A DNA stretch of 64,000 nt, from the NCBI GenBank assembly GCA_017549145.1, contig JAFYVM010000015.1:21488-85487 (forward strand), written 5' to 3'. Source of the stretch: Bacteroidales bacterium. GTDB taxonomy: Bacteria; Bacteroidota; Bacteroidia; Bacteroidales; UBA932. Positions 47,515 to 63,307 of the stretch are shown in pieces; position 1 is the first letter of the stretch; the number at the start of each line of letters is the position of its first letter. A program made the translations under genes and the position numbers. The notes under the pieces are model-generated. The model had not been told where the DNA came from and did no database searches. It saw nothing but the letters and a program-made list of their open reading frames with translations.

Positions 47515-47537
47515 GGTGGAGATAGTCGGAGTCGAAC
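47514..47537 (-). tRNA. 3' fragment of a tRNA gene (attachment site)
   Basis: The minus strand reads GTTCGACT-CCGAC-TATCTCC-A-CCA, that is T loop, 3' T stem, 3' acceptor strand, discriminator A and encoded CCA. The expected 5' T-stem strand GTCGG is absent upstream (AGACG instead), and no tRNA body is present. The intact gene should have begun GGAGATA; its identity cannot be read (Ser or another class is possible). The break lies at the T loop, the usual crossover site of tRNA-targeting integrases. Confidence 0.75.
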
Positions 47538-47641: not shown

Positions 47642-47649
47642 TAAATTTG
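47642..47649 (+). promoter_or_regulatory. Promoter -7 box of the integrase gene
   Basis: TAAATTTG, an exact TAnnTTTG box, with a near -33 CTTG 20 bases upstream. The predicted leader is about 18 bases before ATG 47674. Confidence 0.55.
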
Positions 47650-47673
47650 TTTGTACTTTTAATACAAACAGGT

Positions 47674-49005
47674 ATGCCAGTTAAATTTTATCTACACCCA
47701 AAAGTAAATAAAAAAGGAGAAGCCCCTATAACAATCTCCATAAATATTCGTCAAACAAGGCTCCTTACGACCCTTGGATATAGTGTTGACCCTGCCGCAT
47801 GGGAAGAATCCGGACAGGTCAAAGTACGCTATACAAACTCCAAAGGCATACCTTCCCGCAAGATCAATAATCGTATTATGAAAATCAAACTGCATTTTTC
47901 AGAATATGAGAATGATCTTAAAGTTCGCCCTACACTTGACGAAATCAAAGAACAACTTGCAACAGCCATCTCCCTAGGCGATGATCTCACGCCTACCGAG
48001 GTAGCAGAAGAGGCTCCGGTAAAACTCATCTATGAATTCTTTGATCAATTTGTAAAAGAAGAGAGCGTGCTTAATCAGTGGGCTGCAGCCACCCTCAAGA
48101 ACTGGCATACCTTCAAGATTCATCTGGAATCGTTCGGCAAGAAACTCGAGTTCCGTGATTTCAACGAAAAAGGACTCAGCCGTTTCATTATGCACTTGAG
48201 AAAAGTCTGCAAGATGGAAGAAAAGACTGTCCAGAAGCATTACAACAATTTCAAGTGGTTCCTGAACTGGGCTATCCGCAAGGGTTACTGTCAGGAGGAA
48301 GCAGTCAACAAATACCGTCCGAAGTTCAAAGTCCTTGACAAACCTGTAATCTTCCTCACCAAAGAAGAACTGCTCAAACTCTACACCTACGAGATTCCGA
48401 AGAACGGAACCAAGGTCAAGCTGTATGATGCCAACGGAGAAGAATACGAAAAGACAGTCCAGGAAGCCGGTGCTCTCGCCAAAACCCGAGACCTCTTCTG
48501 TTTCTGTGCCTTCACCTCGCTCAGATACTCCGATATGGCAGCCCTCAAGAGAACCGACATCGACGGAGATAAAATCTACATCACAACTCAGAAAACCAAC
48601 GACCGTCTTCCTATAGACCTCAGCAAAAACGCAAAGGCAATACTTGATAAATACAAAGACGAGCAGTTCCCGTTCGGACTTGCCCTGCCGGTAATCTCAA
48701 ATCAGAAGATGAACCACTATCTCAAGGATCTTGGCGAACTCTGCGGATTCACCACTCCGATAACCATCGTATGTTACAGAGCCGGTCAGCGAGTTGAAGA
48801 AACATATCCGAAATACTCCCTCATCGGAACACACGCAGCAAGAAGAACATTCATATGCTTCGCCCTCTCGAACGGTGTGCCACCTCAGGTAGTAATGAAA
48901 TGGACCGGCCACTCAGACTACAAGGCGATGCGTCCCTACATTGATATCGCAGAAAAGACCAAAGCCGATGCCATGAAACTCATCGACAACGCTTGGGGAA
49001 TGTAG
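47674..49005 (+). CDS. Tyrosine recombinase (site-specific integrase)
   Basis: 443 residues from ATG 47674 (MPVKFYLHPK); the earlier ATG at 47647 lies before the predicted transcription start. The N-terminal arm-binding domain (KGEAPITISINI) and a SAM-like core-binding domain (about 115-215) precede the catalytic domain with Arg284 (TSLRYSD), His387 and Arg390 (THAARRTF), His413 (WTGHSD) and Tyr422 (RPYIDI). All catalytic positions are intact. It is the Bacteroidetes phage/transposon integrase type and probably targets the tRNA T loop about 135 bases away. Confidence 0.95.
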   Translation: MPVKFYLHPKVNKKGEAPITISINIRQTRLLTTLGYSVDPAAWEESGQVKVRYTNSKGIPSRKINNRIMKIKLHFSEYENDLKVRPTLDEIKEQLATAISLGDDLTPTEVAEEAPVKLIYEFFDQFVKEESVLNQWAAATLKNWHTFKIHLESFGKKLEFRDFNEKGLSRFIMHLRKVCKMEEKTVQKHYNNFKWFLNWAIRKGYCQEEAVNKYRPKFKVLDKPVIFLTKEELLKLYTYEIPKNGTKVKLYDANGEEYEKTVQEAGALAKTRDLFCFCAFTSLRYSDMAALKRTDIDGDKIYITTQKTNDRLPIDLSKNAKAILDKYKDEQFPFGLALPVISNQKMNHYLKDLGELCGFTTPITIVCYRAGQRVEETYPKYSLIGTHAARRTFICFALSNGVPPQVVMKWTGHSDYKAMRPYIDIAEKTKADAMKLIDNAWGM

Positions 49006-49073
49006 CCTATATATATTAAGGTATAAGGCGAGGAAAATTTAAATATCAGTTTCTTCACTTTATCAAAATCCGT

Positions 49074-49081
49074 TATATTTG
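49074..49081 (+). promoter_or_regulatory. Promoter -7 box of the AlbA-type gene
   Basis: TATATTTG, an exact TAnnTTTG box, about 30 bases before ATG 49112. No -33 TTTG. Confidence 0.5.
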
Positions 49082-49111
49082 TAAAGAAACATAATACCAA
49101 AGGAAAGTACA

Positions 49112-50578
49112 ATGACTATCGAAGACATTTTATCTCGTGAGGAGGGACAGACATTTGATCGTAAGAGCGTACGAATCAAGCCAAAGGATCTGGCAGTTAC
49201 TATGATTGCATTTGCCAATGCGGATGGTGGCGATTTGGTAGTAGGTATCACTGATGGCAAGAGGGAGATTGAAGGAGTTGATGGAGATGAGAAGATCCTT
49301 AATGACATTCGTCGCACTCCATTTGATTTCTGTGCGCCATCAGTAAATGCTCAAATTGAGATGGTTCCTTGCGTAGATAGAACAGGTAAAGACAATCATG
49401 TGCTAGTATTCCATATTGAACCGAGCTTGAGAGTTTATGCCAATCAGGCTGATGAGGTGTTTCTTCGGGTGGGAGACAAATCAAAGAAGTTGTCATTCGA
49501 CGAACGCTTCCAACTTATGAACGACAAAGGACAATCTTGTTACGAAGAGACAGCTGTTTACAGTGCCGGATTGGAAGATCTGGACATGACTCTCGTTGAT
49601 GACTATTGCCAGAAATCAGGATATGGCAAGTCCTCTATGGAGTTCCTGACTGAAAATCACGGATATGTTGTTGAGAAAAACGGCAAGTTACATCCAACAG
49701 TTGTCTCGCTTCTTTTGTTCGGTAAGAAGCCGCAAGATTTCCTGCCAAGGGCAAGCGTGCGTTTTATCCGTTATGAGGGAACAGAGGAGAAGACTGGAAC
49801 AGAGATGAATGTCATCAAGGATGTGATATTTGAAGGTCCAGTGCGTGAGCAGATAGATAAGTCTGTCGCATTCCTGGCAACTCAGATTAAGGAAAGGACT
49901 TATCTCGGAGCCGATGGCAAGTTTGTCACAGAGGTTGAATATCCTGAGTTTGTAAGACAGGAGATGATAGTGAATGCTTGTTGCCATAGAGACCTGAGTA
50001 TCACTGGAACAGACATTCAGGTTAAGCTCTTTGATGACAGGCTTGTTGTAGAGAGCCCCGGAAATCTCCCTGGACTTGTCCGCCCGGACAATATCCGCCA
50101 CACGCACTTCTCTCGTAATCCTAGACTTGCACGCTATCTGAAGACATATAAATATGTAAAGGAGTTTGGAGAAGGTGTAGATCGTATGTGTTGAGAGATG
50201 GAAGCTGATGGATTGCTTCCTATCAAGTATTATAAGAACGATTTTATCCTTCGGGCAGTGGCCTGGAGCAAGAATGCGAAAGATGCCGGTAGCGATAAAG
50301 TAGCGATAAGTAGCGATAAAGTAGCGATAAGTAGCGATAAAGTAGCGATAAAATGGAGTGATGTAAAGGAGAAATGCTCACCAAATACAATTAAGATTTT
50401 AGAGCACTTGGCTCATAATGGATCAATATCAAATGCTGTTGCACGTGAGATCACCGGACTCTCATCACCAGGAGCACGAAAGATTCTAAGCCACCTTGCA
50501 GAAAACAAGATCGTAAGTCCTGAAGGAGATAAAAAATCGCGTGTATATCATTTGATGGTAGAATTTATATTCGACTAA
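49112..50578 (+). pseudogene. AlbA_2/Schlafen-type putative transcriptional regulator, interrupted by an in-frame TGA
   Basis: The frame is continuous from 49112 to 50578 except for one TGA at 50192-50194, after GEGVDRMC. The following residues EMEADGLLP continue the family sequence without any gap, and Arg (CGA) is the expected residue, so one C-to-T change explains the stop. Residues 1-120 are the AlbA_2 (divergent AAA-4) domain with GQTFDRKS, and residues about 250-375 the C-terminal ATPase-like domain ending GEGVDRM. The last part (50198-50578) contains a 21-base tandem repeat and a winged-helix domain (TIKILEHLAHNGSISN). An ATG right after the stop might allow the C-terminal part to be made separately. 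Confidence 0.85.
50291..50350 (+). repeat. 21-base tandem repeat in the linker of the AlbA-type gene
   Basis: The unit AGCGATAAAGTAGCGATAAG plus T occurs at 50291-50311 and 50312-50332 and 18 bases of it at 50333-50350. It encodes repeated SDKVAIS and stays in frame. Confidence 0.95.
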
Positions 50579-51166
50579 AATCCTGAACATTCATAGTAAG
50601 AATCCCCGGCAGCCGCTGGGGATTTTCACGTCTCTCATGATATCGTAAACGGTGTTTACGAATTTCCGCAACATCGCTGCGGAAGTCTTATCCTCTGAAA
50701 TCCGGTCAACACCGTTGACCAAAATCAAAAACATTCCTCCGGACCCCACAAATTCGTCCCATCCTGATTTCTTTGCCTTATCCTCATGCGTGGTAATGCT
50801 CGCAGCATTTAAGAAGGTCTTGCACTCAGCAAAGACAAAGGTGAAGTCATATGCCCGGCAACAGAAGGACAAGAAGAAACTGCAGGAAAGGTTGAATGAA
50901 TGGATTAAAGAGTTCGAAAACGAGCAATAAAGACCCTCGTTGTAGAGCTTGTCTGTCAGTTCTTGCAATTTGTTCTGCATATTGCGTAAAGTATTCAATT
51001 TTAGTGCATTACTAAGGTCATAAAATTACCTCCCAAAGGCTCATTTTCCCTGTTTTTGAAGTGATTTGAAGAATCTTTCAGAACATTTTGAAAAATTATT
51101 TCACTGACACACTGCAACTTACGCAGTGCGTATCTAATGTCTATAGTTAAAGTCGTGCTTTTTTTG
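50579..51166. other. Region without a convincing gene between AlbA-type gene and unknown protein
   Basis: A minus-strand open frame (50591-50998, 135 residues) begins MNTLRNMQNKLQELTDKL. Residues 7-23 resemble the start of Bacteroidota V-type ATPase subunit E, but the rest does not continue that family. Its latter half (DKAKKSGWDEFVGSGGMF) looks protein-like yet I cannot name it. A plus-strand frame (50652-50930) overlaps it with a Lys-rich end, KKLQERLNEWIKEFENEQ. The two cannot both be real. I read the region as gene debris. Confidence 0.35.
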
Positions 51167-51174
51167 TAAATTTG
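51167..51174 (+). promoter_or_regulatory. Promoter -7 box before the unknown 317-residue protein
   Basis: TAAATTTG, an exact TAnnTTTG box; the predicted start near 51181 leaves a leader of about 38 bases to ATG 51219. No -33 TTTG. Confidence 0.5.
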
Positions 51175-51218
51175 GTTTAAAGTGATTGTTTTGTATATCA
51201 ATTTTTAACCAATTTTTT

Positions 51219-52172
51219 ATGCCATTACAGGCCTTCATATCAGCTTATGCAAGCAAAGAGGCGCAGACTCTTTGCCGTGATATGGCTGTCGCTGATGGCA
51301 ATCTCTCCCTTGATCACATAACGACAACATCTAGTGATGCGATACGTCATATCGTCAATTACACCCATGAAGAATCACATATCTCTTTTACTAGGTGGGA
51401 TGATTTAGCAAGATATCTATACGATAAGATTCGTGAATGCAAAAAAGATCAGTTGCAAATTAAAAATGTCGTTACTCAAATTTATATGCAAGTAAAAACA
51501 GTTGCCGCTTACTTTCATAATCTTTCCCATACTGACACAAATCAAGAAAAGATAAACCAATACTTCAACTGCATAATTACAACACTTAAATATGCTCATC
51601 ATGTATTAGAGGCTTTAGGATATAAACATACTGAAGATTTTGGAGTAATGAATCACAAGTGGAACAAACCATGTTTTCATGCTATCGCAGAAATCGGTCT
51701 GGCATTGGAACGTTTGGGGAATATCATTCAAGCATGCTTATATCAGAATGGCATCTCAACAACGATATTCGACTATCAACAGATGTGCGATGTAGTTCTA
51801 GTGGAATCTATTACAGCAGAATCAATCGCAGAATCCATGGACTGGACAACCACTCTAGCTCAATCATATATGGACGAAACTAACATCAGGAAGAAAATCG
51901 TACCATTTAATACCATTCCGGAAATCAAGCAAGCAATCAAGGATAACATTATCAGCGAGAAAGGAGTACTCCTCGTATCCAACCGTGCATTCGTTATGTA
52001 CTGTTATGATCATCGTTTCTTCCTGCCACTCAACAAGAAAGACTGGAAAAGCATCGACTGTCTCCTCACTTCAAAAGAAGGAAAAATCCTTACATCAAGC
52101 ACTCTATCCAAAGTTGCTCATCAACTTCAGAAAGACGGCTTTTTTGATGAAAAAGTCCGATACGGGAAATAA
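51219..52172 (+). CDS. Unknown cytoplasmic protein
   Basis: 317 residues from ATG 51219 (MPLQAFISAY), preferred to ATG 51186, which lies about at the predicted transcription start. I do not recognise the family. No signal peptide or membrane helix is visible. The N-terminal two thirds are helical and rich in Tyr, His and Asn (KTVAAYFHNLSHTDTNQ). The last 60 residues (LLTSKEGKILTSSTLSKVAHQLQ) look like a small alpha/beta or winged-helix module. It sits between a regulator and the DUF3853/excisionase genes of the element, so a role in element control is possible but not shown. Confidence 0.6.
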   Translation: MPLQAFISAYASKEAQTLCRDMAVADGNLSLDHITTTSSDAIRHIVNYTHEESHISFTRWDDLARYLYDKIRECKKDQLQIKNVVTQIYMQVKTVAAYFHNLSHTDTNQEKINQYFNCIITTLKYAHHVLEALGYKHTEDFGVMNHKWNKPCFHAIAEIGLALERLGNIIQACLYQNGISTTIFDYQQMCDVVLVESITAESIAESMDWTTTLAQSYMDETNIRKKIVPFNTIPEIKQAIKDNIISEKGVLLVSNRAFVMYCYDHRFFLPLNKKDWKSIDCLLTSKEGKILTSSTLSKVAHQLQKDGFFDEKVRYGK

Positions 52173-52372
52173 ATCACACAAATCTACCATCTCTAACTCA
52201 GCACCATTGGAACACCACCAATGGTGCTGATGGTATGAATCCCCATAGACTCTACCTTACTTTGCCAGTACGATACGAACAGGCGAAGTGGTATCACCTG
52301 TCCGGAAGTCGCCCGACCAGTAAGAATGCTTACCACCATTCAAACTGGTCATTATTCCAAAATGAGATTACA

Positions 52373-52681
52373 ATGATTGGATTTGACGACTCAATGCCTA
52401 TCGGAGCGATGACGATAGGCGATCTTAAGGTTCTGATGCAGGAGATTCTTGAGACTGCTGCCGGTCAGAATGTCAGCAAGCATGGGAGTGGTGCTCCTAA
52501 GCGTTATGTGTATGGTATCAAGGGTATAGAGGAACTGTTCGGATGTTCGCATGCCACTGCTCAGCATTATAAGGACAATGTTATTAAGGAGGCTGTTACG
52601 CAGAATGGGCGTAAGATTATCGTGGATGTGGAGTATGCTATTGAACTTTTCGGTAGGAGGAATGGTCATGGACAGAAATAA
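52373..52681 (+). CDS. DUF3853 family protein
   Basis: 102 residues from ATG 52373 (MIGFDDSMPIG). The core KRYVYGIKGIEELFGCSHATAQHYKD is a helix-turn-helix-like segment found in DUF3853 proteins of Bacteroidota mobile elements, always near primase genes. It probably binds DNA. The frame is open upstream to 52235, but that stretch does not look like family sequence. It overlaps the next gene by 14 bases. Confidence 0.8.
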   Translation: MIGFDDSMPIGAMTIGDLKVLMQEILETAAGQNVSKHGSGAPKRYVYGIKGIEELFGCSHATAQHYKDNVIKEAVTQNGRKIIVDVEYAIELFGRRNGHGQK

Positions 52682-52895
52682 GCCGAACATTGATCTTGAA
52701 AACCTTCTGGATGGGCAGGATATCATGCAGATGCTGCATGTCAGTCCTCGCACTCTTCAAACTTTACGTAGCAATGGTACTATTCCATATACTCGCATCG
52801 GTCGCAAGATTTATTATCTGAGGGAGGATATTGAGAGGATTCTTCGGAATAACTACATCATGACAAAAATTGAGGATCGCTATGGGAAAGAATAA
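52668..52895 (+). CDS. Helix-turn-helix, excisionase-like protein
   Basis: 75 residues from ATG 52668. An AGGAGG ribosome-binding site seven bases upstream (52655-52660), rare in this phylum, sets the start. GQDIMQMLHVSPRTLQTLRSNG plus IPYTRIGRKIYYLREDIERIL (given as two parts) is the MerR/excisionase-type winged helix. Such proteins bend DNA during excision or regulate the element. It overlaps DUF3853 before it and the VirE-N gene after it, so the three are translated as a coupled set. Confidence 0.85.
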   Translation: MDRNKPNIDLENLLDGQDIMQMLHVSPRTLQTLRSNGTIPYTRIGRKIYYLREDIERILRNNYIMTKIEDRYGKE

Positions 52896-53769
52896 TCTTA
52901 CGAAACAGGCGATTTTGTCAAAGACTTCGTATGGTTTGAATATTTATGCTCATATCTTGAGACAATTCTTTCCTGAGGATGAAGTTCTTATAAAGGTTGT
53001 TGGAAGGGACTGCGACGTTTGTCGCAATCCCTTCGATAACGGCAAAAGGACTTTGAAGATATGGATCGAGAAGAAGGAGCCAGGAAAGGTGATATCACCG
53101 GAGTGGGCTTGTCATCAGGATTTGTCGGAGACTGTTTCTGACGGAGATTGTTTTGATTTTGCCAGAAGGCATTATCGACTTGATGGCCAGTCTCTTTATC
53201 GGAGAATTTCTGATGATCTGTTTCTCGGGCTTGGCGATGTTCGCTTTACATTCTTCAAACATCCGATTACGAATACGGTTCCACATAAGGATATAACTCT
53301 TGCTGATGCGTATAATTATATCTCGAGGCCTTATGCAAAGGATAGGACAGAGAAGTTACGGTCATTATCAGATGTGAAGAGAGCGAGGAGTTATAAAGCT
53401 GCAAACTTTGACTATTGTACTTTCTCTGGTACGTTCGGCAGTAGAAGCGACAAGGCATTGATTGACCATAGCGGATACTTATGCATTGACTTTGACCATC
53501 TCACAGATGTAAATGCTACATTCCAGATGCTGCTGGAGGATAGGTGCTTTGCTACTGAATTGCTTTTTCGCAGCCCTTCCGGCGATGGACTGAAATGGAT
53601 TATAAGCATCAATACAGCCGAGATTTCACATGCGGAATACTTCAATGCAGTCGCTAATTATCTGAGGCAGACATATGGGCTTGAGGCGGATAAATCTGGA
53701 AAGGATGTGTCGCGTGCTTGTTTTCTTCCCTATGATCCGGAGGCATATATAAATCCTAAAAATCTATAG
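52882..53769 (+). CDS. VirE N-terminal domain protein (BT4734 type), primase part
   Basis: 295 residues from ATG 52882 (MGKNNLTKQ). The second half, with YLCIDFDHLTDV and LLFRSPSGDGLKWIISI, is the archaeo-eukaryotic-primase-like core of the VirE_N/BT4734 family; the paired acidic residues DFD are in place. The N-terminal 110 residues contain CDVCRNPF and ECHQDLSE-like segments of an upstream domain. It likely primes replication of the element together with the next gene, which starts five bases later. Confidence 0.8.
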   Translation: MGKNNLTKQAILSKTSYGLNIYAHILRQFFPEDEVLIKVVGRDCDVCRNPFDNGKRTLKIWIEKKEPGKVISPEWACHQDLSETVSDGDCFDFARRHYRLDGQSLYRRISDDLFLGLGDVRFTFFKHPITNTVPHKDITLADAYNYISRPYAKDRTEKLRSLSDVKRARSYKAANFDYCTFSGTFGSRSDKALIDHSGYLCIDFDHLTDVNATFQMLLEDRCFATELLFRSPSGDGLKWIISINTAEISHAEYFNAVANYLRQTYGLEADKSGKDVSRACFLPYDPEAYINPKNL

Positions 53770-53774
53770 AAATC

Positions 53775-55583
53775 ATGAATACTGAGAATACTTTTAATCC
53801 ACATGAGTGGCTGGAAATTAAGGGCACAGAGTCCGAACATCCAGCTCCGGCTATTGTTTCCAGCACCGGCAGAGATGCTTCTGATATTGAAACGATAACT
53901 TCACGAATTGAGGAGTCGCGTGTAGATATAACTTCGAGTTATGCTGACTGGCGAGATCTTGGCTTTGCTCTCAGTGATGCCCTTGGAGAGGCTGGACGTG
54001 ATTATTTTCATCGTCTGAGTCGGTTCCATCCGGAATATAATGCTGTCGAGGCTGATAAGCAATATGACCGCTGTCTCAAAGCTGGCGGACATGGAATCAC
54101 CATCAAGACCTTTTTTCAGTTGGCTAAGGCACACGGAATAAGTTTGGTTACGCGGACTATGCCTGTTCGGGAGCGGGCTTCCTATACCTCAGTTCGTCCT
54201 GCTGAGGGAATTGAGGTATCTGAGGGGATGAGGGAGATGCCCGATCAGGTCGGTCATGACGACAGTCTTCCGACTTTTACACCGCAGATTCACAAAAACC
54301 TCCCGGACTTTCTTCGTAAGATTATTGATGTTGCAGACTCGCCGGAGGACGGCGATATCCTTCTCCTCGGCACACTCACCGTCCTCTCTGCCTGTCTCCC
54401 TCAGATTGAAGGCATATACAACAGACGCCCAGTAAGCCCCAACCTCTTCCTCTTCGTCACAGCAAGAGCATCATCCGGCAAAGGACGCCTCACTCTCTGT
54501 CGTTACCTGATTGAGCCGATTCATGAACGCCTACGCGAAATCAATGAGGCTGAGATGATGGAATATAAGCAGAAGATGCAGGTATATAATGCCAGCAAAA
54601 ACAAAGGCTCTATGGCGAAGCCGGAGCAGCCACCTCTGCGTATGCTTTTCATTCCTGCCAACTCCTCAGCCACCGCAGTTTATCAGGTACTGGGAGAGAA
54701 CGACGGCCAGGGAATTATGTTCGAGACAGAGGGTGACACGCTTGCAAATACATTCGCCTCAGATTATGGTAACTATTCTGATGGATTCCGCAAGGCGTTC
54801 CACCATGAGGCTATATCGTACGTCAGAAGAAAGGACCGTGAGTATGTAAATCTGAAACACCCTAAACTATCGGCCCTGCTGACAGGTACTCCGAAACAGG
54901 TGTCATCGTTGATTACCGATGCTGAGAATGGTCTATTCTCCCGTTTCATTTTCTATTACCTCAGCACGAAGGTAATGTGGCAGAATGTTTTTGAGCAGTC
55001 GGGAGACCGTACTCTAGATGATCAGTTTCGTGCTTTTGGAGAAGAGTTTCATGATTTCCATACTTTGCTCGCAGATTATGGAAAGGTCCGTTTCCATTTG
55101 ACTTGTGAGCAGCAGAGACGGTTCAATGCTTTCTTTGAGCGAACACAGGTGCAGTATGTAGATGAGTTTGGCGAGGATATTATTGCTTCCGTGCGTCGTC
55201 TTGGGCTTATCACTTATCGCATTGCAATGATTATGAGTGCGCTTCGTATCATGGAAGATGGTTGTTTTGAGGATAATATCATTTGCAGGGATGTTGATTT
55301 TGAGACTGCTTTGATTATTTCAGATGCACTGCTACATCATACGACAAAGATATTTGAGGAGTTGCCGAGACTTGCAGCATCTGCTTCTTCTGCTGCTGGT
55401 CAGAAGACTATTCGTCGCCAGCTGTTCCTGGATAAACTGCCGGAGTCGTTTACGCGGAAGGAATTTATTGACATATCGGCTTTATTGGGAATTCCGCTGA
55501 AGACGGCTGAGAGGCATATTTCCCAGTGGTGCAAAGATGGACTTATAGAACGCATAGAACAAGGAAAGTACCTCAAACGCTAA
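53775..55583 (+). CDS. PriCT_2 and DUF3987 replication protein (helicase-like)
   Basis: A 602-residue protein. Residues about 45-120 are a PriCT_2 primase-associated domain (DWRDLGFALSDALG, KQYDRCLKAGG). Residues about 175-560 are DUF3987, with the Walker-A-like TARASSGKGRLTL near 230 and a later TGTPKQVSSLI. The end is a winged helix (TAERHISQWCKDGLIERIEQG). With the VirE-N protein it forms a split primase-helicase used by Bacteroidota islands. Residues 154-162 (EMPDQVGHD) are encoded by an in-frame copy of repeat family 2. Confidence 0.85.
   Translation: MNTENTFNPHEWLEIKGTESEHPAPAIVSSTGRDASDIETITSRIEESRVDITSSYADWRDLGFALSDALGEAGRDYFHRLSRFHPEYNAVEADKQYDRCLKAGGHGITIKTFFQLAKAHGISLVTRTMPVRERASYTSVRPAEGIEVSEGMREMPDQVGHDDSLPTFTPQIHKNLPDFLRKIIDVADSPEDGDILLLGTLTVLSACLPQIEGIYNRRPVSPNLFLFVTARASSGKGRLTLCRYLIEPIHERLREINEAEMMEYKQKMQVYNASKNKGSMAKPEQPPLRMLFIPANSSATAVYQVLGENDGQGIMFETEGDTLANTFASDYGNYSDGFRKAFHHEAISYVRRKDREYVNLKHPKLSALLTGTPKQVSSLITDAENGLFSRFIFYYLSTKVMWQNVFEQSGDRTLDDQFRAFGEEFHDFHTLLADYGKVRFHLTCEQQRRFNAFFERTQVQYVDEFGEDIIASVRRLGLITYRIAMIMSALRIMEDGCFEDNIICRDVDFETALIISDALLHHTTKIFEELPRLAASASSAAGQKTIRRQLFLDKLPESFTRKEFIDISALLGIPLKTAERHISQWCKDGLIERIEQGKYLKR
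54235..54261 (+). repeat. Palindromic repeat family 2, in-frame copy inside the DUF3987 gene
   Basis: agatgcccgatcaggtcggt followed by catgacg, 27 nt. The arms ATGcCCGA and TCGGtCAT can pair. It matches the reverse copy at 55610-55637 at about 24 of 27 positions. Confidence 0.85.
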
Positions 55584-55588
55584 TGTCC

Positions 55589-55664
55589 CCGTCATGCCCG
55601 GCTACTTTACCGTCATGGCCGACTTGATCGGCCATCTGTCATGCCCGGCTCCGACCGAGCATCT
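55589..55664. repeat. Palindromic repeat family 2, cluster after the DUF3987 gene
   Basis: A half copy (ccgtcatgcccggc, 55589-55602), a full reverse copy (55610-55637, stem ATGGCCGA/TCGGCCAT) and another reverse copy (55638-55664) follow the stop codon directly. Confidence 0.8.
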
Positions 55665-55669
55665 CCCTC

Positions 55670-55716
55670 ATTCCCTCACTAACCTCAATTCCCTCAATGG
55701 GGTGGAGTGAGGGAAT
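55670..55716 (+). terminator. Inverted repeat ending the replication module
   Basis: ATTCCCTCACT (55670-55680) and AGTGAGGGAAT (55706-55716) are perfect 11-base partners with a 25-base loop. No T-run follows, so it may end or stabilise the primase mRNA. Confidence 0.5.
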
Positions 55717-55786
55717 AGTTGAAATAGCGCTTCCTGTATTCTAATATAAATTTGAAGTTATAATATGTAATTTGAAAATTCTTTAC

Positions 55787-55794
55787 TACTTTTG
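55787..55794 (+). promoter_or_regulatory. Promoter -7 box of the structured RNA
   Basis: TACTTTTG, an exact TAnnTTTG box; the only nearby TTTG (55771) is too close for a standard -33. The predicted start is near 55800, exactly at the first hairpin. Confidence 0.6.
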
Positions 55795-55798
55795 CGTA

Positions 55799-55997
55799 GC
55801 TGTTGAGAAAGACAGCAATACATACAGAAAGCGTTTAGCTGTATTCCGTTAGAATGAATCTGGACAATTCAAGTAACACAGGAATGAAGTTAGCGTTTAC
55901 ACTGGCTATAATCTGAGCGTTCTGCTCATGCTATAGCGGAAGTGTGAGCTATAAATGTTCTTCATCCGTGTTACAGGCTGTCCAGAGCCCATTCTAA
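55799..55997 (+). ncRNA. Candidate structured RNA or leader with a 149-nt extended hairpin
   Basis: GCTGT/ACAGC (55799-55816) forms a small 5' hairpin. A long hairpin follows, from 55849 to 55997, with TTAGAATG/CATTCTAA (8 bp), TCTGGACA/TGTCCAGA (8 bp), GTAACAC-GG-ATGAAG against CTTCATCCGTGTTAC (15 bp, two bulged A), ACACT/AGTGT, GCTATA/TATAGC and apical TGAGC-GTTCT-GCTCA. No open reading frame fits. It could be a free small RNA, since a near-promoter TTACTTTTTG lies at 56067-56076 before the operon, or the leader of the cargo operon. Bacteroidales-1-type or 6S-like RNAs are possible relatives; a DNA hairpin for replication is another reading. Confidence 0.65.
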
Positions 55998-56114
55998 GGA
56001 TTAAGACTAGAAGAGCTCGCACTTTCTTTTATTAACCAACAATCCGTCTTCGAGCTTCACGGTAATTACTTTTTGCATGACTAATTATTCATGTTTAACT
56101 TAATATTTCTACGT

Positions 56115-56816
56115 ATGAAAAAGTATTTACTAATTCTAGTTGGAGCTTTAATGCTCGTAAGTTGCGGAACTACCAAGTATGTTCCGACTCAGAATGCATC
56201 GACAAAGTATAAAGTCGGTGATGTGTATAATCAGAACGGTCTGAAAGGAATTGTCGTAGCTGTCGATGCAAGTGGTCAGCATGGTACAATCATGTCTCTG
56301 GAGAGTTCAAATGCGAAATGGTGTGCTAATAAAGATTTGAAATTTGAAACGAGCGCTTTTTACGAGGATGACGGTCAGAAAAACATGGAGGTTATATCAA
56401 AGTATGTAGAGAATAATAGTGTTTCTTGGAGCGATTTTCCATTGTTCAGTTGGGCGAAGTCTTTAGGTGATGGATGGTATATTCCTGCTAAAGAGGAAGC
56501 ACTCGCTATATGGAAAAACATTAACGGTGGTTCTAATACATATAATAAAAGAACATGTATAGCTTTTGATAAAAGCCAAAGAGCATATGGTGGATCTCCC
56601 CTTGTCGATACGCGTTTCTATTTAGGAAATAAACAACCATATTGGTGGTTTACTTCTACTGAGGCAGACGGTGGTAATGCCCTTGTTGTTCAATTCGGAA
56701 ATGATTTGAAATCACAGCTGATTGTAGGCTTCCATGCTACATTTAAAGCATTTCCTGTTTATAAAAACCCTGGCATCATGTCCTTGTACCGTTCTCGTGC
56801 AGTTCATAAATTCTAA
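56115..56816 (+). CDS. Cargo gene 1: DUF1566/Lcl-C-like lipoprotein
   Basis: 233 residues from ATG 56115 (MKKYLLILVG), lipobox LVSCG. The earlier ATG at 56091 would put eight residues ahead of the signal peptide. The segments KYKVGDVYNQNGLKGIVVAV, SWAKSLGDGWYIPAKEE and YWWFTSTEADGG are typical of DUF1566/Lcl C-terminal-like domains, beta-rich modules of secreted adhesive or surface proteins. It is a paralog of the next gene. It opens a ten-gene array whose spacers are at most 53 bases. Confidence 0.75.
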   Translation: MKKYLLILVGALMLVSCGTTKYVPTQNASTKYKVGDVYNQNGLKGIVVAVDASGQHGTIMSLESSNAKWCANKDLKFETSAFYEDDGQKNMEVISKYVENNSVSWSDFPLFSWAKSLGDGWYIPAKEEALAIWKNINGGSNTYNKRTCIAFDKSQRAYGGSPLVDTRFYLGNKQPYWWFTSTEADGGNALVVQFGNDLKSQLIVGFHATFKAFPVYKNPGIMSLYRSRAVHKF

Positions 56817-56818
56817 AT

Positions 56819-57514
56819 ATGAAAATCTTTAAAAGAACCATATTGAGTGCTGTGTGCTGCATTATTTCTATTGCAGCACACGCGCAGTTCGATGATGTGC
56901 GAAAAGGTGACATCATCGATATAAACGGAGTAAAGGCCTTGGTTTTTCAGGTGGATGATGAAGGACATGGTACAGCAATGACTGTAAAAGCATTGCGTGG
57001 AAAGAAAAATGCGTGGTGTACTAATGTGAAATTATTGAAAAGTTTAGGGGAAACGTTATCTCCTGATGGAATGCAGAATACGGAGATGGTGTATGAGTAT
57101 ATCAATTCTTCTGGTTTCAGTATTTCCCAATTTCCGGCTTTTGAATGGTGCAAGAAGTTAGGTTCTGGCTGGTATATACCATCTCGAGAGGAAATGGAAG
57201 TATTCGTGAATTACTATTTAGGAAATGAGCAGGAGTTTGATTGGGAAAGTGAGGAGGAATTTGATGTTGACTCAGAATCTGTAACTCCTAAGAAAATAAA
57301 CGAGAAACTGATTGAAGCTGGAGGCGTCCCATTTTTAGGCAACGCTATTCCTGGGTCAGGTTTAGCTATCGGTGTATATACGTCCTCTAAAACTGATGAC
57401 AACAAAGTGTTTATCTATCAATATAACACACAGAAAAACACCTTTCGTTTCAAAGGAGTACCAACCAATATGATAGATACATATGCAATTGGAAGAGCAT
57501 TTTATAAATTTTAG
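56819..57514 (+). CDS. Cargo gene 2: secreted DUF1566-like protein
   Basis: 231 residues with a cleavable signal peptide (ending IAAHAQFDD). RKGDIIDINGVKALVFQVDD, AWCTNVKLL and LGSGWYIPSREEMEVF align with cargo gene 1 over most of the length, so the two arose by duplication; this copy lost or never had the lipid anchor. It has an acidic insertion (WESEEEFDVDSES) near residue 143. It starts two bases after gene 1. Confidence 0.75.
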   Translation: MKIFKRTILSAVCCIISIAAHAQFDDVRKGDIIDINGVKALVFQVDDEGHGTAMTVKALRGKKNAWCTNVKLLKSLGETLSPDGMQNTEMVYEYINSSGFSISQFPAFEWCKKLGSGWYIPSREEMEVFVNYYLGNEQEFDWESEEEFDVDSESVTPKKINEKLIEAGGVPFLGNAIPGSGLAIGVYTSSKTDDNKVFIYQYNTQKNTFRFKGVPTNMIDTYAIGRAFYKF

Positions 57515-57517
57515 TAT

Positions 57518-58747
57518 ATGAAACGGATTATACTGTTAATAACAATCCTCATCCCTTTCTATGCTTCATATGCTCAAGATATGAAGTATAGAAGGAGTTC
57601 CATGTACTCAATTCTAATTAGACACCCTGAGAAAGAATTTGGAAAAGATATTGATACCGTATTCAGACTAATGCCATTGCCCGACAAGTTTGACAATCAC
57701 AATCTTAAAGTTCGTGCCATTAATGCAGGTGTTTATGAAAAGAATAATCAGACTGAAGAAGAAAACACCTGCAAGATGATAGAAACCTTTTTGACAAAAA
57801 ATGATATTGCAAAAAGATTAGTGGCAAAATGGTTTAACAGAAAGTCTGGACGTGGTAAAGATGGGACTTTTGATATGAACCTTATTATTGAAAGAGGTTT
57901 ATATGATGCAAGTTACTTTGATGCACAAATAGCAGAAATGTCCACTAGAGGACAAAGTATGTTAGCAGATGCGGGTGAAGAGTTGATAGGTAATACATAT
58001 GTGCTGTTCAACGATATTAAATATATTGATAAGGAGGAAGAGTCGGGACTTGCTGCAACTGGTTTATTGATTGCAGGTCAAATCGCATCACAATTTACGG
58101 GTGGACTGGCAAATCTTATTATTACCTATGTAACGGATGCTGCGGTAAATATTACAGATAAGATTGCCGGTTTTAGAGTAGTTGTAACTTCATACCTTTA
58201 TCGTTTGAATTGGAACGAAGAAATAGCAAACACATTCTATTCAGAATATTATATATCTTCTCCAAATCCTGACAGAAAAGCAGCTTTTGACTCTATAGAT
58301 GGATTATTCTCATTAACATATTTGGGTTGTCAAAAAAGTGTAAGTGAAAAGACTGGATTAGAGGGTGTACATGATAAGAATGATATGATCAGGAAAGTTT
58401 GTACACGTGCCATAGATAAGAATGTAGCCCTCCTTCAAAAAAAATACGAAGAATTCAAAGTAAAGACTCCACTTTATACCACTGAACCTTTGGCTGCTAA
58501 AATAGGTCTTAAAGAAGATATTACAATCGATTCACGTTTTGAGGTTCTAGAGATGGTAGAAAAAGAGGATGGAAGAACCGAATATAAACGCGTTGGTGTA
58601 ATCAAACCTATAAAAGGACGTATCTGGGACAATCGTTTTATGGCAGAATTTGAGGACGAGAATAAAGGAGCAGATTTGAATGCCACTGAGTTTGAGGTTG
58701 TGAATGGATCCGGTTTTTATCCTGGAATGTTAATTAGAGAAATATAG
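57518..58747 (+). CDS. Cargo gene 3: secreted protein of unknown family
   Basis: 409 residues, signal peptide ending ASYAQDM. I do not recognise the family. The first half is helical (TCKMIETFLTKNDIAKRLVAKWF). Around residues 185-215 a Gly/Ala-rich hydrophobic stretch (GLAATGLLIAGQIASQF) could enter a membrane or bury in a complex. The last 80 residues are beta-rich with Asp/Glu/Lys (VLEMVEKEDGRTEYKRVGVI). It is the largest product of the operon. Confidence 0.65.
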   Translation: MKRIILLITILIPFYASYAQDMKYRRSSMYSILIRHPEKEFGKDIDTVFRLMPLPDKFDNHNLKVRAINAGVYEKNNQTEEENTCKMIETFLTKNDIAKRLVAKWFNRKSGRGKDGTFDMNLIIERGLYDASYFDAQIAEMSTRGQSMLADAGEELIGNTYVLFNDIKYIDKEEESGLAATGLLIAGQIASQFTGGLANLIITYVTDAAVNITDKIAGFRVVVTSYLYRLNWNEEIANTFYSEYYISSPNPDRKAAFDSIDGLFSLTYLGCQKSVSEKTGLEGVHDKNDMIRKVCTRAIDKNVALLQKKYEEFKVKTPLYTTEPLAAKIGLKEDITIDSRFEVLEMVEKEDGRTEYKRVGVIKPIKGRIWDNRFMAEFEDENKGADLNATEFEVVNGSGFYPGMLIREI

Positions 58748-58753
58748 AAGCCT

Positions 58754-59260
58754 ATGAAAACACTTGTTAAACTGGCATTGTTATGCCTGAGTGCAATTAC
58801 CTTGGTTTCATGCGGTGCGCAAAGAATGGTCAGCACTCAGACAGCATCCAATAACAGCACATTTGAATGTGTTGGATTAACAGATAAGGGAGAATGTATA
58901 GTTTCAGCGACAGGAACAGGCGCTAATACTTCTTCCATTTCATCAGTTGTGCTAAAGAATGCAATATATGCTTTACTATTTGATGGGATCAAGGGTAATG
59001 AGGAGAATAGGATCAAAGACTTGCCTCCTATGATTGCAGATAAGAATACTTTCGATACTAAAACAGAGTATTTCACTCCGTTCTTTTCTACAAATGGCAA
59101 GTATCTTCAATTTATCAAGCCGATGCCGGCAGCTCTGCCAAAGACAATCAGGACGAAATCAGGATATAAGGTTACTACAACATATCTTATAGATAAAAAT
59201 GCTTTAAGAAAGGAACTTGAAGCAAATGGTATTATTAAATCACTTTCAAATATTTTGTAA
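58754..59260 (+). CDS. Cargo gene 4: LPP20-like lipoprotein
   Basis: 168 residues, lipobox TLVSCG. Residues 45-85 (CIVSATGTGANTSSISSVVL, then KNAIYALLFDG) have the small-residue turn and long helix of LPP20/FlgO-like domains, the family related to outer-membrane assembly proteins. The C-terminus ends LEANGIIKSL. It is a clear paralog of the next protein. The TAA stop overlaps the next ATG by one base. Confidence 0.65.
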   Translation: MKTLVKLALLCLSAITLVSCGAQRMVSTQTASNNSTFECVGLTDKGECIVSATGTGANTSSISSVVLKNAIYALLFDGIKGNEENRIKDLPPMIADKNTFDTKTEYFTPFFSTNGKYLQFIKPMPAALPKTIRTKSGYKVTTTYLIDKNALRKELEANGIIKSLSNIL

Positions 59261-59724
59261 TGAGACACAATTGGATGTTATTCACTGTACTGACAGTGAT
59301 TCTTAACTTTTTTGCCATTGATGCACATTCGCAATCGTATGAAATCGAATGTCTTAATGTTGAGCAGGACGGCTCTCAGACTCTAAGAGTATGGGGCGAA
59401 GGTCGTAATAAGGTTGATGCTGTAGAGCAAGCAAAAAAGAATGCGGTTAACGAGATACTCTTTCATGGTGTTCTCAAAGGTAACAAAGGGTATAACCAAA
59501 GACCCATAGTCACAGTTGTCAATGCTCGCGAAAGATATCAGGAGTACTTTGATTCTTTCTTTATGGATAAAGGCGAATACACAAATTATGTGAGTATGAA
59601 AGACCGGCGAATCGGATCAACAGTTAAAATACCTGGTACAACTCAGGTACGATGCTGCATAACGGTTCGCGTTTTATGCCCTCAATTGAGAGCAAAGTTA
59701 AAAGCAGATGGTATAATCAAATAA
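59260..59724 (+). CDS. Cargo gene 5: secreted LPP20-like protein
   Basis: 154 residues, signal peptide ending AHSQSYE. TLRVWGEGRNKVDAVEQAKK followed by NAVNEILFHGVLKG is the LPP20-like motif. The middle YQEYFDSFFMDKGEY aligns with EYFTPFFSTNGKY of gene 4, and the end LKADGIIK with its LEANGIIK. So genes 4 and 5 form a lipoprotein/soluble pair, like genes 1 and 2. Confidence 0.65.
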   Translation: MRHNWMLFTVLTVILNFFAIDAHSQSYEIECLNVEQDGSQTLRVWGEGRNKVDAVEQAKKNAVNEILFHGVLKGNKGYNQRPIVTVVNARERYQEYFDSFFMDKGEYTNYVSMKDRRIGSTVKIPGTTQVRCCITVRVLCPQLRAKLKADGIIK

Positions 59725-59737
59725 TATTCAACAATCT

Positions 59738-60685
59738 ATGAAAAGGTTTTTATTTACAATACTTCTTTGCTTAGTCGCCATTACACTATGGGGACAGGCA
59801 AAAAAACCGACTATTATGGTGGTGCCAAGCGATGTCTGGTGCGTACAAAACAATTACACTAACACCTATGATAACCAGGGAATAAGCCAAATTGTTCCTG
59901 ATTATACTAAGGCATTGCAGACTGATGCAAATCTTTTACTGGCGATTGCAAAAATCAATACAATGATGGCAGACAGAGGATTCCCATTGAAAGATTTACA
60001 GGCTGTAACAAAGTCTATTGCTCAGCAGAATGCAGAAGACAATATGATTCAAAGTAAAACTTCTGGAGCATCATTGGCAGAAAGTCCGATAGACCGCTTA
60101 AGGAGAGTTGCAAAAGCAGATATCATTATGCAATTAACCTACACCATTAACCAGATGGGGCCCAAATACTCTCTTACATATAATCTTCAGGGTTTGGACT
60201 CATATACAAACAAGCAGATTGCCGGTGCACAAGGAACAGGAAAACATACATTTTCCGCTGAACTTCCCATCCTTCTTGAAGAGGCAGTGCTCTCAAATAT
60301 GGATGAATTCTGTACTCAACTGATGACATACTTCGAGGATATTAATGAAAATGGTCGCGAAGTAGCAGTTGACATCAGAGTCTTTGACAATGGAAGCGGC
60401 TTGGATCTGGAGTCTGAATTCAATGATATGGAACTTTCTGAGATAATAGATGATTGGATGTCGGACAATACAGTAAATCATGTATTCAACAAGTCTGATG
60501 CAAGTGAGACTTTCATTCAGTACGAACAGGTTCGTATTCCTCTTTATAAAGAGAACGGCAATCAGATGGACACAGAATCGTTTGTCAGAGGTTTGAGAAC
60601 ATATCTCCGTAAGCAATACCAGATTGAAAGCAAGGTAATGGCAAGGGGACTCGGCAGATGTATACTTGTAATCGGTGAAAAATAA
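59738..60685 (+). CDS. Cargo gene 6: DUF6175-type secreted protein
   Basis: 315 residues, signal peptide ending LWGQAKK. KPTIMVVPSDVWCVQNNY, the helix MADRGFPLKDLQAVTKSI and ADIIMQLTYTINQMGPKYSL resemble what I recall of DUF6175, and loosely the CsgG/LpoB fold, in which IxVxP strands, a helix and a beta-meander follow in this order. The C-terminal 110 residues form a second alpha/beta domain ending GRCILVIGEK. The family name is a recollection, not a search result. Confidence 0.6.
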   Translation: MKRFLFTILLCLVAITLWGQAKKPTIMVVPSDVWCVQNNYTNTYDNQGISQIVPDYTKALQTDANLLLAIAKINTMMADRGFPLKDLQAVTKSIAQQNAEDNMIQSKTSGASLAESPIDRLRRVAKADIIMQLTYTINQMGPKYSLTYNLQGLDSYTNKQIAGAQGTGKHTFSAELPILLEEAVLSNMDEFCTQLMTYFEDINENGREVAVDIRVFDNGSGLDLESEFNDMELSEIIDDWMSDNTVNHVFNKSDASETFIQYEQVRIPLYKENGNQMDTESFVRGLRTYLRKQYQIESKVMARGLGRCILVIGEK

Positions 60686-60701
60686 CAAAACTTTAATGTT
60701 T

Positions 60702-61652
60702 ATGAAGAAAAATCTGATAATAGGAATTTGTAGCCTGGTAGCAATAGCGGCATCAACATCATCTTATGCCCAGACCGAAGAGGCGGCAACTATACCTTTA
60801 ACTGTAATTGCAGCTAAGCAACAGTCTGTTCCTGAAACAGCAATGACCTATCTCAATAACAAATTGATGCAGGTTGTTACTAAAAATGGATTGGGAACAA
60901 CTGATTACAATTCACGTTTTGTAATAACTGCTTCTATTATTCCTGTAACTATGGACATTGTCCCTGGCCCACCACGTCAGTTTTCTGAAAGTATTGACAT
61001 TACTTTCTACATCGTAGATAATATCGACCAGAAAATATATTCCTCAGCCACGGTTTCAGCAAAAGCAGTCGAGGCTTCAGAAGAAAAAGCTCTAATCAAA
61101 GCGATTCGTTCCATAAATGTCGGATCGTCCCAAATTGCTGAGTTTGTCAATAACGGTAGAGAAAAGATCATAGCATACTATGAATCTCAGTGCGACAATA
61201 TAATTGCAAAAGCTAAATCACTGGCATCTCAAAACATGTATGAGGCAGCATTGTTTGAACTGAATTCTATACCATCATGCTGTACTGAAGCTTATAAAAA
61301 GAGCTCAAAAGTAGCAGAAGGTATTTTTGATACATATGTTGACTACTGGGGAAATGTATGCCTATCAAAAGCCAGAAACTTGTGGATGGCTGAGCCTAAT
61401 GCCCAGGGGGCAAAGAAGGCCGGAGAGTATTTATGTCAAATACTACCATACTCCAAGAGTTACTCAAATGCGGAAAAATTATATCAGGAAATTAAGAATG
61501 AAGTTAAAGAAGATCTTGATTTCGAAATAAAAGTATATGACGATATAATAGGTCTAGAAGTGGCGAAAGTCAATGCATGGAAGGAAATCGGTGTCGCATT
61601 TGGAAAAGGACAACAGCCAGTGGATACCAATGTCACTTGGTTGGTTAAATAA
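60702..61652 (+). CDS. Cargo gene 7: secreted protein with CsgG-like part and helical repeats
   Basis: 316 residues from ATG 60702 (MKKNLIIGI), 16 bases after gene 6; the ATG at 60675 overlaps gene 6 and lacks a proper signal. The signal peptide ends SSYAQTEE. Residues about 30-150 (SRFVITASIIPVTMDIVPG, FYIVDNIDQKIYSSATVSAK) look like the beta half of a CsgG-type domain. From 165 onward helical pairs (AKSLASQNMYEAALFELNSI) suggest TPR-like repeats. Function unknown. Confidence 0.65.
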   Translation: MKKNLIIGICSLVAIAASTSSYAQTEEAATIPLTVIAAKQQSVPETAMTYLNNKLMQVVTKNGLGTTDYNSRFVITASIIPVTMDIVPGPPRQFSESIDITFYIVDNIDQKIYSSATVSAKAVEASEEKALIKAIRSINVGSSQIAEFVNNGREKIIAYYESQCDNIIAKAKSLASQNMYEAALFELNSIPSCCTEAYKKSSKVAEGIFDTYVDYWGNVCLSKARNLWMAEPNAQGAKKAGEYLCQILPYSKSYSNAEKLYQEIKNEVKEDLDFEIKVYDDIIGLEVAKVNAWKEIGVAFGKGQQPVDTNVTWLVK

Positions 61653-61689
61653 GATTAAACAACAAGCATAAATTTTTAAATCAAGACTC

Positions 61690-62010
61690 ATGAAAAAAAT
61701 ATTAACGTATTTTGCCGGTGTACTGCTGGCTATAGTTGCATTCTCATCATGTACTAAAGATGAAGCCTATTGGAAAGTAGAAACAAGTTCTATAGAGTAC
61801 GATGACTACTCGGATTATTCACGATTTGTCAGTGAAATTGATGCCTTGGATGACGGAGTGACATGGACTGTTTCTCAGGTTGAACGAGAAGTAAATTCAA
61901 TCGTCAAGAAATATGATGGTGATTTAGGCTGTACTGTATATTTAAAAACAGGTTCTTCAATGTCTGGTCCGTGGACCACTAAGAAGACTTGGACAATGAG
62001 ATTGAGATAG
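61690..62010 (+). CDS. Cargo gene 8: small lipoprotein
   Basis: 106 residues, lipobox FSSC. An acidic Asp/Tyr-rich start (SIEYDDYSDYSRF) leads to a domain VSQVEREVNSIVKKYDGDLG and WTMRLR. The same small helix-plus-strand unit recurs in cargo gene 10. Family unknown. Confidence 0.65.
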   Translation: MKKILTYFAGVLLAIVAFSSCTKDEAYWKVETSSIEYDDYSDYSRFVSEIDALDDGVTWTVSQVEREVNSIVKKYDGDLGCTVYLKTGSSMSGPWTTKKTWTMRLR

Positions 62011-62063
62011 TTTAACTTCGGGGATGGCAGATTATTTAGTCATCCCCGCAACATAAAATTAAG

Positions 62064-62456
62064 ATGAAGAAATTTTTATTATTGCTTGCCAGCATTATTG
62101 TGATTTGTTCTTGTGACAAAGAAAAAATAGACCCATCATTAGTGAACGTTGAGATTGAGCTTACATGCATTGATGAAGAGCCAGCATATGGTGGGGAGAC
62201 CAAGCATACAATTTTATGTACGGGAAAAATCGGTGGTTTTACGGGAGAAGCCAGAATAAGTATTGGAAGCAGTTCTCCGTGGACAGGAGCAAACACTAAA
62301 ACTGTATCAGTAGCAGGAGAGAATACATCATTTTCGTATACTTTTCATGTCACAGAGGATGATGACTATACAAATAAGCCAATAACCTTTGATATTACAG
62401 TAAGTGGGCCTCAGTATCAAGAACTATTTAGGTCTTCTGTGGTAGTATACCTTTAA
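62064..62456 (+). CDS. Cargo gene 9: small beta-sandwich lipoprotein
   Basis: 130 residues, lipobox VICSC. The mature part (VEIELTCIDEEPAYGGETKH, GKIGGFTGEARISIGSSSPW) has the alternating pattern of an Ig-like beta sandwich. I do not recognise the family. It lies 53 bases after gene 8, and the spacer contains a short hairpin (GGGGATG...CATCCCC, about 62020-62047). Confidence 0.65.
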   Translation: MKKFLLLLASIIVICSCDKEKIDPSLVNVEIELTCIDEEPAYGGETKHTILCTGKIGGFTGEARISIGSSSPWTGANTKTVSVAGENTSFSYTFHVTEDDDYTNKPITFDITVSGPQYQELFRSSVVVYL

Positions 62457-62482
62457 GTTTTACTATGTCTTGAAATACCATT

Positions 62483-63307
62483 ATGAAGAAAGGGTTATTT
62501 GTAAGAAGCGTAAAATTTTGCATTATATCCGTTCTGTTGTGGTCTGTTATATCTTGTGAGGAAGATAGCCAGTACGCAACAGGTGAGACTTATTATAAAT
62601 ATGAAAATTTAGAGAATATAGAGTATATAAGTATTACACCATATGGGGAAGGAACAATTGAAAGTTTTTTGAAGGAGCTTACTTACATAATGAATAATTT
62701 TGATGGTACTCTATTTTCTCAAAATGAACTTGTTTCAGAGATTCAGGAGGTGGTTGAACGCTATGATGATGGTCTTATTAGTGGCTCTTTCAACTTGATG
62801 AAATCCAATAAAGGACCTAATGGAAAATTTAAAGTTGCAGAATCGTTTACCCTTAGTTATAGTGATGAATATGATTATCTCTTTAATCTTGATATATCAA
62901 AAGTGTATGGTAGTTGGTTTGAGAGCTCTAAAATATATTATGACCTAAAGGGTAATATCACAGATGAGTTTTATAATTCCATGACAGATGATTATTACTA
63001 TGGAGTCCTAACCCTTAAATCAGATATCATATATGATGGCATCGGAAATTCATTCCCTTACCAAGTACTATATGTGGATAAAGTTTATAGCAAGGGTAAT
63101 AAACCTACTGTATCGAAAAAAGCTACATGGTGGTTTGATGAAAGAGGAATTAATGCTGGTGCTTGGGTGGATGGCGATATCTATTATGGAGTACAAGGAG
63201 AAATAATTTCACTTGACAGCAATACAATGCGCATAAAGTATACAGCTTCGGATTATATATATGTGTCTACTCTAAAAAGAGTAAGCGAACCGAAGCATAA
63301 TTTATAG
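62483..63307 (+). CDS. Cargo gene 10: lipoprotein related to gene 8
   Basis: 274 residues, lipobox VISCEED. Residues about 60-130 (FDGTLFSQNELVSEIQEVVE, RYDDGLISGSFNL, FTLSYSDEYDY) repeat the pattern of gene 8, followed by an extra beta-rich domain of about 140 residues with many Tyr/Asp/Gly (YGVLTLKSDIIYDGIGNSF). It is visibly AT-richer than the chromosome part and is the last gene of the array. Confidence 0.65.
   Translation: MKKGLFVRSVKFCIISVLLWSVISCEEDSQYATGETYYKYENLENIEYISITPYGEGTIESFLKELTYIMNNFDGTLFSQNELVSEIQEVVERYDDGLISGSFNLMKSNKGPNGKFKVAESFTLSYSDEYDYLFNLDISKVYGSWFESSKIYYDLKGNITDEFYNSMTDDYYYGVLTLKSDIIYDGIGNSFPYQVLYVDKVYSKGNKPTVSKKATWWFDERGINAGAWVDGDIYYGVQGEIISLDSNTMRIKYTASDYIYVSTLKRVSEPKHNL

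Follow-up and report, generated by a model that had tools for sequence, protein, structure and literature searches.

Our analysis of ten open reading frames (ORFs), all on the + strand at positions 56115-63307 of a 64,000-nucleotide stretch from a Bacteroidales bacterium (assembly GCA_017549145.1, contig JAFYVM010000015.1; the whole stretch is referred to here as the window), suggests that five of them, genes 3 to 7 (57518-61652), are the conserved and linked core of the run, and that this core is probably an operon, conserved in Bacteroidales, whose CsgG-superfamily-like products would form an assembly in the envelope. The gene by which the core can be followed from genome to genome is gene 6 (59738-60685), which encodes a predicted secreted protein and is a full-length member of the DUF6175 family (PF19672; E-value 1.4e-118, 395.8 bits against a cut-off of 23, residues 22-313 aligned to profile positions 1-293), whose Pfam entry carries no function. 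DUF6175 is common, being present in 67 of the 295 Bacteroidales genomes sampled (66 of them over the cut-off) and in none of 14 control genomes, and no paper was found under its name in a literature search that left most subscription journals uncovered. To place this family in a conserved operon of exported products, next to CsgG-like partners and with a fusion that recurs, would offer a first testable functional idea for a widespread envelope locus.

The linkage of the core was studied by scanning the neighbourhoods of DUF6175 matches with profiles that were iterated once (alignments A1-A4 draw on a subset of each family), and the counts are confined to genes that share the strand of gene 6. 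Ninety loci were scanned, 82 of which carry gene 6; these 82 are partly non-independent, as several genomes contribute two loci each, and L190 and L191 come from contig ends of a single genome. Gene 7 is found in 72 of them, gene 4/5 (separate or fused) in 73, and gene 3 in 55. A CsgG/LpoB-like gene that we call X is present in 14 loci; gene 3 and X are never found together, and 13 loci have neither. The two commonest gene orders, with nine loci each, are 4/5-4/5-6-7-3 and 3-4/5-4/5-6-7, the latter being that of the window, and 244 of 272 successive pairs of family genes are separated by 150 bases or less (median 23). In an earlier comparison with the ORFs of 43 other loci, relatives of genes 3-7 were seen in many, and relatives of genes 1, 2, 8, 9 and 10 in none. 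In 17 of the 82 loci, furthermore, gene 4/5 and gene 6 are a single ORF, and a gene 4/5-like start is also visible by eye in one ORF each of L165 and L186. When a quick tree was built from 79 gene-6 sequences, with the ORFs of L165 and L186 scored as separate, four changes were inferred for the fused state and one for the gene-3-or-X state; all 14 X-bearing rows, together with L185, which has neither X nor gene 3, form one clade with a Shimodaira-Hasegawa-like approximate likelihood ratio test (SH-aLRT) support of 99. Long branches meet in this tree, and its deep order is therefore unsure. The gene 6 of the window is nearest by path to those of L062-L064, L003 and L088, and a weakly supported group (84) unites it with these, with L004 and L049, and with the second copy in its own genome (L048).

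The similarity that may connect the core proteins with one another passes through X, which is CsgG/LpoB-like as judged by its Pfam matches. In the 13 X proteins scanned, of 14 (that of L155, which is near L153, was left out of the alignment A10), LpoB is matched by six members (best 2.1e-8), CsgG by four (1.9e-6), FlgT_C by three (0.0056), LptE by two (8.7e-6) and FlgT_M by one. The type of fold is the same in LpoB, CsgG, FlgT and TolB-N. When the signal peptides were trimmed, hhalign scores against X were 35.6 for gene 6, 36.2 for gene 7 (60696-61652, + strand, secreted, with an alternative start at 60675) and 43.1 for gene 3 (57518-58747, + strand, secreted), the resemblance lying in the N-terminal part of gene 7 and in a C-terminal stretch of gene 3. 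Among the controls, 12 shuffles per pair scored at most 18.0 and reversed profiles at most 17.7 (16.2 and 17.7, respectively, for gene 3), while the highest score of 19 unrelated families was 23.0 against X, 17.4 against gene 6, 19.2 against gene 7 and 17.7 against gene 3. The untrimmed values for genes 6 and 7 against X (94.8 and 95.4) were set aside in favour of the signal-trimmed ones. What the sequences show is that the core genes are linked, that gene 4/5 is fused to gene 6 in relatives, that the products carry export signals and that the profiles of genes 3, 6 and 7 resemble X; beyond this we infer that the core proteins may share a fold and form an oligomer, as well as where they would be located and what they would do.

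Several of our results weigh against this interpretation. The hhalign probabilities that accompany the trimmed scores against X are no higher than 42 for gene 6, 47 for gene 7 and 72.6 for gene 3. Against an independent CsgG set the scores of genes 6, 7 and 3 are 26.7, 17.2 and 24.0 (probabilities 5.9, 0.4 and 2.2), with shuffles reaching 16.9, 18.6 and 17.7, values that genes 6 and 3 exceed and gene 7 does not; the scores of the three proteins against one another are low too (17.8 for genes 7 and 6, 25.0 for genes 3 and 6, 14.8 for genes 3 and 7), and the link therefore passes through X. Profile searches against the PDB returned nothing below an E-value of 0.14, and gene 4/5 is without supported kin in Pfam or in trimmed hhalign comparisons. 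The core set is, in addition, sometimes incomplete: in seven of the 13 loci devoid of gene 3 as well as of X, gene 6 is flanked on each side by 5 kb or more (the remainder being near contig or stretch ends), and these seven are either real gaps or loci with undetected relatives. With earlier and smaller profiles, no link of genes 3, 6 and 7 to CsgG or X rose above a probability of 24. X and the resemblance of genes 3, 6 and 7 to it are in fact where the likeness to the CsgG/LpoB/TolB-N type of protein resides, whereas the window proteins themselves have no Pfam match to CsgG or LpoB, Pfam CsgG being over cut-off for none of genes 3, 6 and 7 and found at best in one of 35 DUF6175 members, at 0.066.

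If genes 3-7 do specify an envelope assembly of CsgG-superfamily-like proteins, the structure that we favour for their products is a ring or scaffold of several subunits, which would lie in the periplasm or at the outer membrane. The product of gene 4 (58754-59260, + strand), a predicted lipoprotein with GAQR after the cysteine and no surface-type signal, would be lipid-anchored on the periplasmic face of the outer membrane, and those of genes 5 (59260-59724, + strand; a secreted paralogue of gene 4), 6, 7 and 3 would be exported to the periplasm, where they would assemble with it into an oligomeric structure. A lipobox was recognised by our own rule in 19 of 76 stand-alone gene 4/5 proteins, and in 17 of these 19 none of the four residues that follow the cysteine is acidic. 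The C-terminal part of gene 7, which would be tetratricopeptide repeat (TPR)-like, could act as a docking surface: ARM_TT21 is matched by seven of 29 members of the gene 7 family (best 4.1e-7), and TPR/ARM matches are seen in some relatives of gene 7 and not in the gene 7 of the window itself.

As models for working, and not as statements of family membership, we take CsgG-like assemblies and the Vibrio H-ring (PMC7990780 and PMC6375700); according to PMC7990780, the ring is composed of FlgO and FlgP, both lipoproteins of the outer membrane, and of the periplasmic FlgT. The core resembles the H-ring in being a small, co-directed set of exported products with weak matches to FlgO and FlgT and, at some loci, with LPP20-type neighbours. 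FlgP is LPP20-like. A more literal version of this likeness, where the core would be a non-flagellar counterpart of the H-ring, a ring beneath the outer membrane that encircles an exported structure of some kind, appears unlikely to us. Its domain parallels are FlgO, which is the lowest-E-value second match of DUF6175 members (two of 35, best 0.0026), the FlgT_C and FlgT_M matches of X, and the LPP20-type genes found on the same strand at 29 of the 82 loci (Pfam LPP20 at 4e-10 in L159 and at 1.2e-4, below the cut-off, in L074). Matches to FlgO and FlgT are weak, however; DUF5376 (0.018) and Ntox4 (0.02) match single DUF6175 members almost equally, and LpoB and CsgG match X better than the FlgT families do. 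FlgO or FlgT is over cut-off in none of the window proteins or core relatives, with the X members reaching 0.0056 at best; the window has no LPP20-type gene, and its proteins, unlike the H-ring, gave no flagellar match in Pfam or NCBIfam, the rest of the genome not having been searched for flagellar genes. Gene 4/5 was also tried as an LPP20-like protein, and this candidate was rejected: the probability of 93.6 obtained against the LPP20-like f5 without trimming is a signal-peptide effect, and the trimmed comparison gave 17.7, with shuffles up to 18.0, which leaves gene 4/5 unalignable to LPP20. No paper that treats LPP20 together with CsgG in the Bacteroides group was found, most subscription journals being uncovered here as well. 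We would extend the same doubt to the broader picture of Bacteroidales with a relative of the FlgO/FlgP/FlgT ring that is independent of flagella, in which several CsgG-like proteins and lipoproteins would build an outer-membrane ring for some exported structure, with one copy lying here beside an integrase module and accompanied by surface lipoproteins of its own. A role without any ring, in which the core would aid peptidoglycan synthesis or outer-membrane assembly in the manner of LpoB or LptE, seems improbable. It would fit the matches of X to LpoB and LptE (six and two of 13 members), and it would fit the position of the second copy of the core in this genome, on contig C17 among core chromosomal genes, where its neighbours are an amino-acid-kinase gene (UMP-kinase-like) and genes for the ribosome-recycling factor, LpxK, RodA, a penicillin-binding protein and MreC; the RodA, penicillin-binding protein and MreC neighbourhood comes from one genome, however, and L003, L004 and other loci have different neighbours.

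The interpretation from which our study departed, a sequence-only reading of the window, was that all ten genes are one mobile-element cargo operon encoding a single envelope or surface assembly. Part of that description holds. The ten genes are co-directed, and the ORF coordinates agree with spacers of -1 to 53 bases (2, 3, 6, -1, 13, 10, 37, 53 and 26 bases from gene 1 to gene 10, with gene 7 starting at the ATG at 60696). All ten products also carry a predicted export signal, as had been proposed, and the same division was reproduced here by crude rules of our own and not by SignalP: a lipobox in genes 1, 4, 8, 9 and 10, and an ordinary, cleavable signal in genes 2, 3, 5, 6 and 7. The same rule finds a signal in 17 of 39 other selected window ORFs of at least 100 amino acids, a background from which ten out of ten would be obtained by independent draws with a probability of about 2.5e-4. 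Eleven of the 17, as found by this crude rule, stand in a row on the minus strand, at 12020-34330; exported genes cluster, and an all-exported run is therefore not rare in this window. The all-exported run is real and by itself unexceptional.

That all ten genes build a single machine of the envelope or surface, with an island as its carrier, is in our opinion rather improbable. The genes are close, continuous and all exported, an integrase module and a remnant of a tRNA-Ala gene lie upstream, and the guanine plus cytosine (G+C) content is low in all ten. Genes 1, 2, 8, 9 and 10, however, were absent from all 81 other gene-6 loci when searched for directly in the 90 loci, and we rejected the ten as one conserved unit on these grounds, so that the proposed co-occurrence in other Bacteroidota genomes fails for half of the run and the idea of an exported multi-protein assembly is the one that suits genes 3-7 best, which are together across Bacteroidales, and does not extend to the ten. 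Within these 90 loci, genes 1, 2 and 9 are found only in the window, and for genes 8 and 10 a single additional ORF was matched, in L193, which lacks gene 6. Whole-genome searches, which covered genes 2, 8, 9 and 10 and left out gene 1, yielded relatives for gene 2 in 12 of 295 genomes, for gene 8 in three of 149 and for gene 10 in three of 198 (own genome included each time), and for gene 9 in one of 149, its own genome alone. Other genomes that also carry DUF6175 are G021 and G185, with a relative of gene 2, and G126, with relatives of genes 8 and 10, and in all three the relative and the DUF6175 gene are on different contigs. Because few relative-bearing genomes carry DUF6175, the power of this comparison of whole genomes is low, and the telling test is that of the 81 other core loci. 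Genes 1, 2, 8, 9 and 10 would be additions of the window copy, which may serve the assembly or simply lie beside it.

As to the claim that the run is mobile-element cargo, it is plausible for the window copy, based on the integrase module, the tRNA-Ala remnant and the low G+C content. The module (47647-55583, + strand) comprises genes for an integrase, an AlbA/Schlafen protein, a winged helix-turn-helix protein, a DUF6270-like protein (below the cut-off), DUF3853, a BT4734-like protein and DUF3987/PriCT_2. Beside the integrase is a 3' remnant of tRNA-Ala (47515-47537, no strand given), which is likely the left attachment site, and integrase and remnant both lie on one side of the ten genes. 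The G+C content of the ten genes is 0.371 versus 0.443 for the window sequence that precedes them (to 56114), while that of the second copy is 0.432 versus 0.449 for its surroundings. The right end of the island would be beyond the end of the contig. No second copy of the remnant is present in the window, whose end is the contig end; an intact tRNA-Ala on contig C39 matches the end of the remnant with one mismatch, and a reading of C39 did not establish it as the other end of the island; and no empty site could be defined, this having been sought only via the neighbouring rhamnosidase, for which relatives in the genus are at most 53% identical. The sequence that separates the module from gene 1, moreover, holds a structured RNA (55816-56037, + strand; z-score -5.6 for 55795-56030), and as this RNA is found genus-wide, the element may end before gene 1. 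Matches to 55740-56110 were obtained by BLAST in 16 of 101 genomes of the genus, own included (G307 only outside the RNA, G351 twice), and 14 aligned copies, in an alignment (A9) that leaves out L239, show two-sided changes at 21 of 49 predicted pairs. Rfam gave no match here at E-values up to 5; the predicted rod shape is reminiscent of that of 6S RNA.

For the core in general, nothing in the sequences analysed suggests that it is usual mobile-element cargo. Integrases like that of the window were seen at three of the 81 other gene-6 loci, within the flanks fetched and with other integrase types expected to escape such a search. No relatives of gene 6 were found in viral contigs, by a pattern-based scan, or in plasmids. 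One record labelled 'Bacteriophage sp.' (MT836698.1, L088; 9 kb, unannotated and unverified, from human faeces) does bear gene 6, and it carries core genes 3-7 and a WG-repeat gene; it is probably a mislabelled bacterial contig.

Among the minor observations, a WG-repeat-type gene lies inside the core in L062-L064 and L084 and adjoins it in L088, and a gene for 3-deoxy-D-arabino-heptulosonate 7-phosphate (DAHP) synthase/chorismate mutase adjoins the core in L003 and L004. In seven loci (L057, L059, L066, L071, L075, L078 and L177) a co-directed ExbB-ExbD-ExbD set is found upstream of the core, and in six of the seven an alkaline-phosphatase-like gene separates the two (Pfam names taken from L078). 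The helix-turn-helix gene of the integrase module contains three exact tandem copies of 21 bases (window 50289-50351). No TTTG/TAnnTTTG pattern was present within 55583-56115, and a scan for sigma-70 promoters was at chance level (31 sites versus 26.6 in shuffles). Pfam, NCBIfam and PADLOC gave no confident name to any of the ten products other than DUF6175 for gene 6; the sole PADLOC row is a weak one, gene 6 against Mem_03 at 0.0012, and a known defence system was rejected after this search.

With regard to the genes outside the core, all of which are on the + strand, gene 1 (56115-56816) encodes a predicted lipoprotein with GTTK after the cysteine and is a paralogue of gene 2 (56819-57514; E-values 2e-24 to 8e-24), whose product would be secreted. 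Three relatives of gene 2 were scanned for Lcl_C, and one long relative matches it over the cut-off (7.9e-9), another below it (0.023) and the third not at all. Genes 8 (61690-62010) and 9 (62064-62456) encode small lipoproteins and gene 10 (62483-63307) a further lipoprotein; one small lipoprotein of G126 is matched by both gene 8 and gene 10, yet these two have no direct match to each other. Some of these five products are probably surface lipoproteins, a location that, when read from the residues after the cysteine, is a prediction only. Gene 10 has an acid-rich start (C-EEDS), resembling the proposed Bacteroides surface signal, and the DKEK of gene 9 is less clear, while the start of gene 8 (C-TKDE) is surface-export-like and fits the signal C-X-K-(D/E)2 given for Capnocytophaga surface lipoproteins in PMC5080379.

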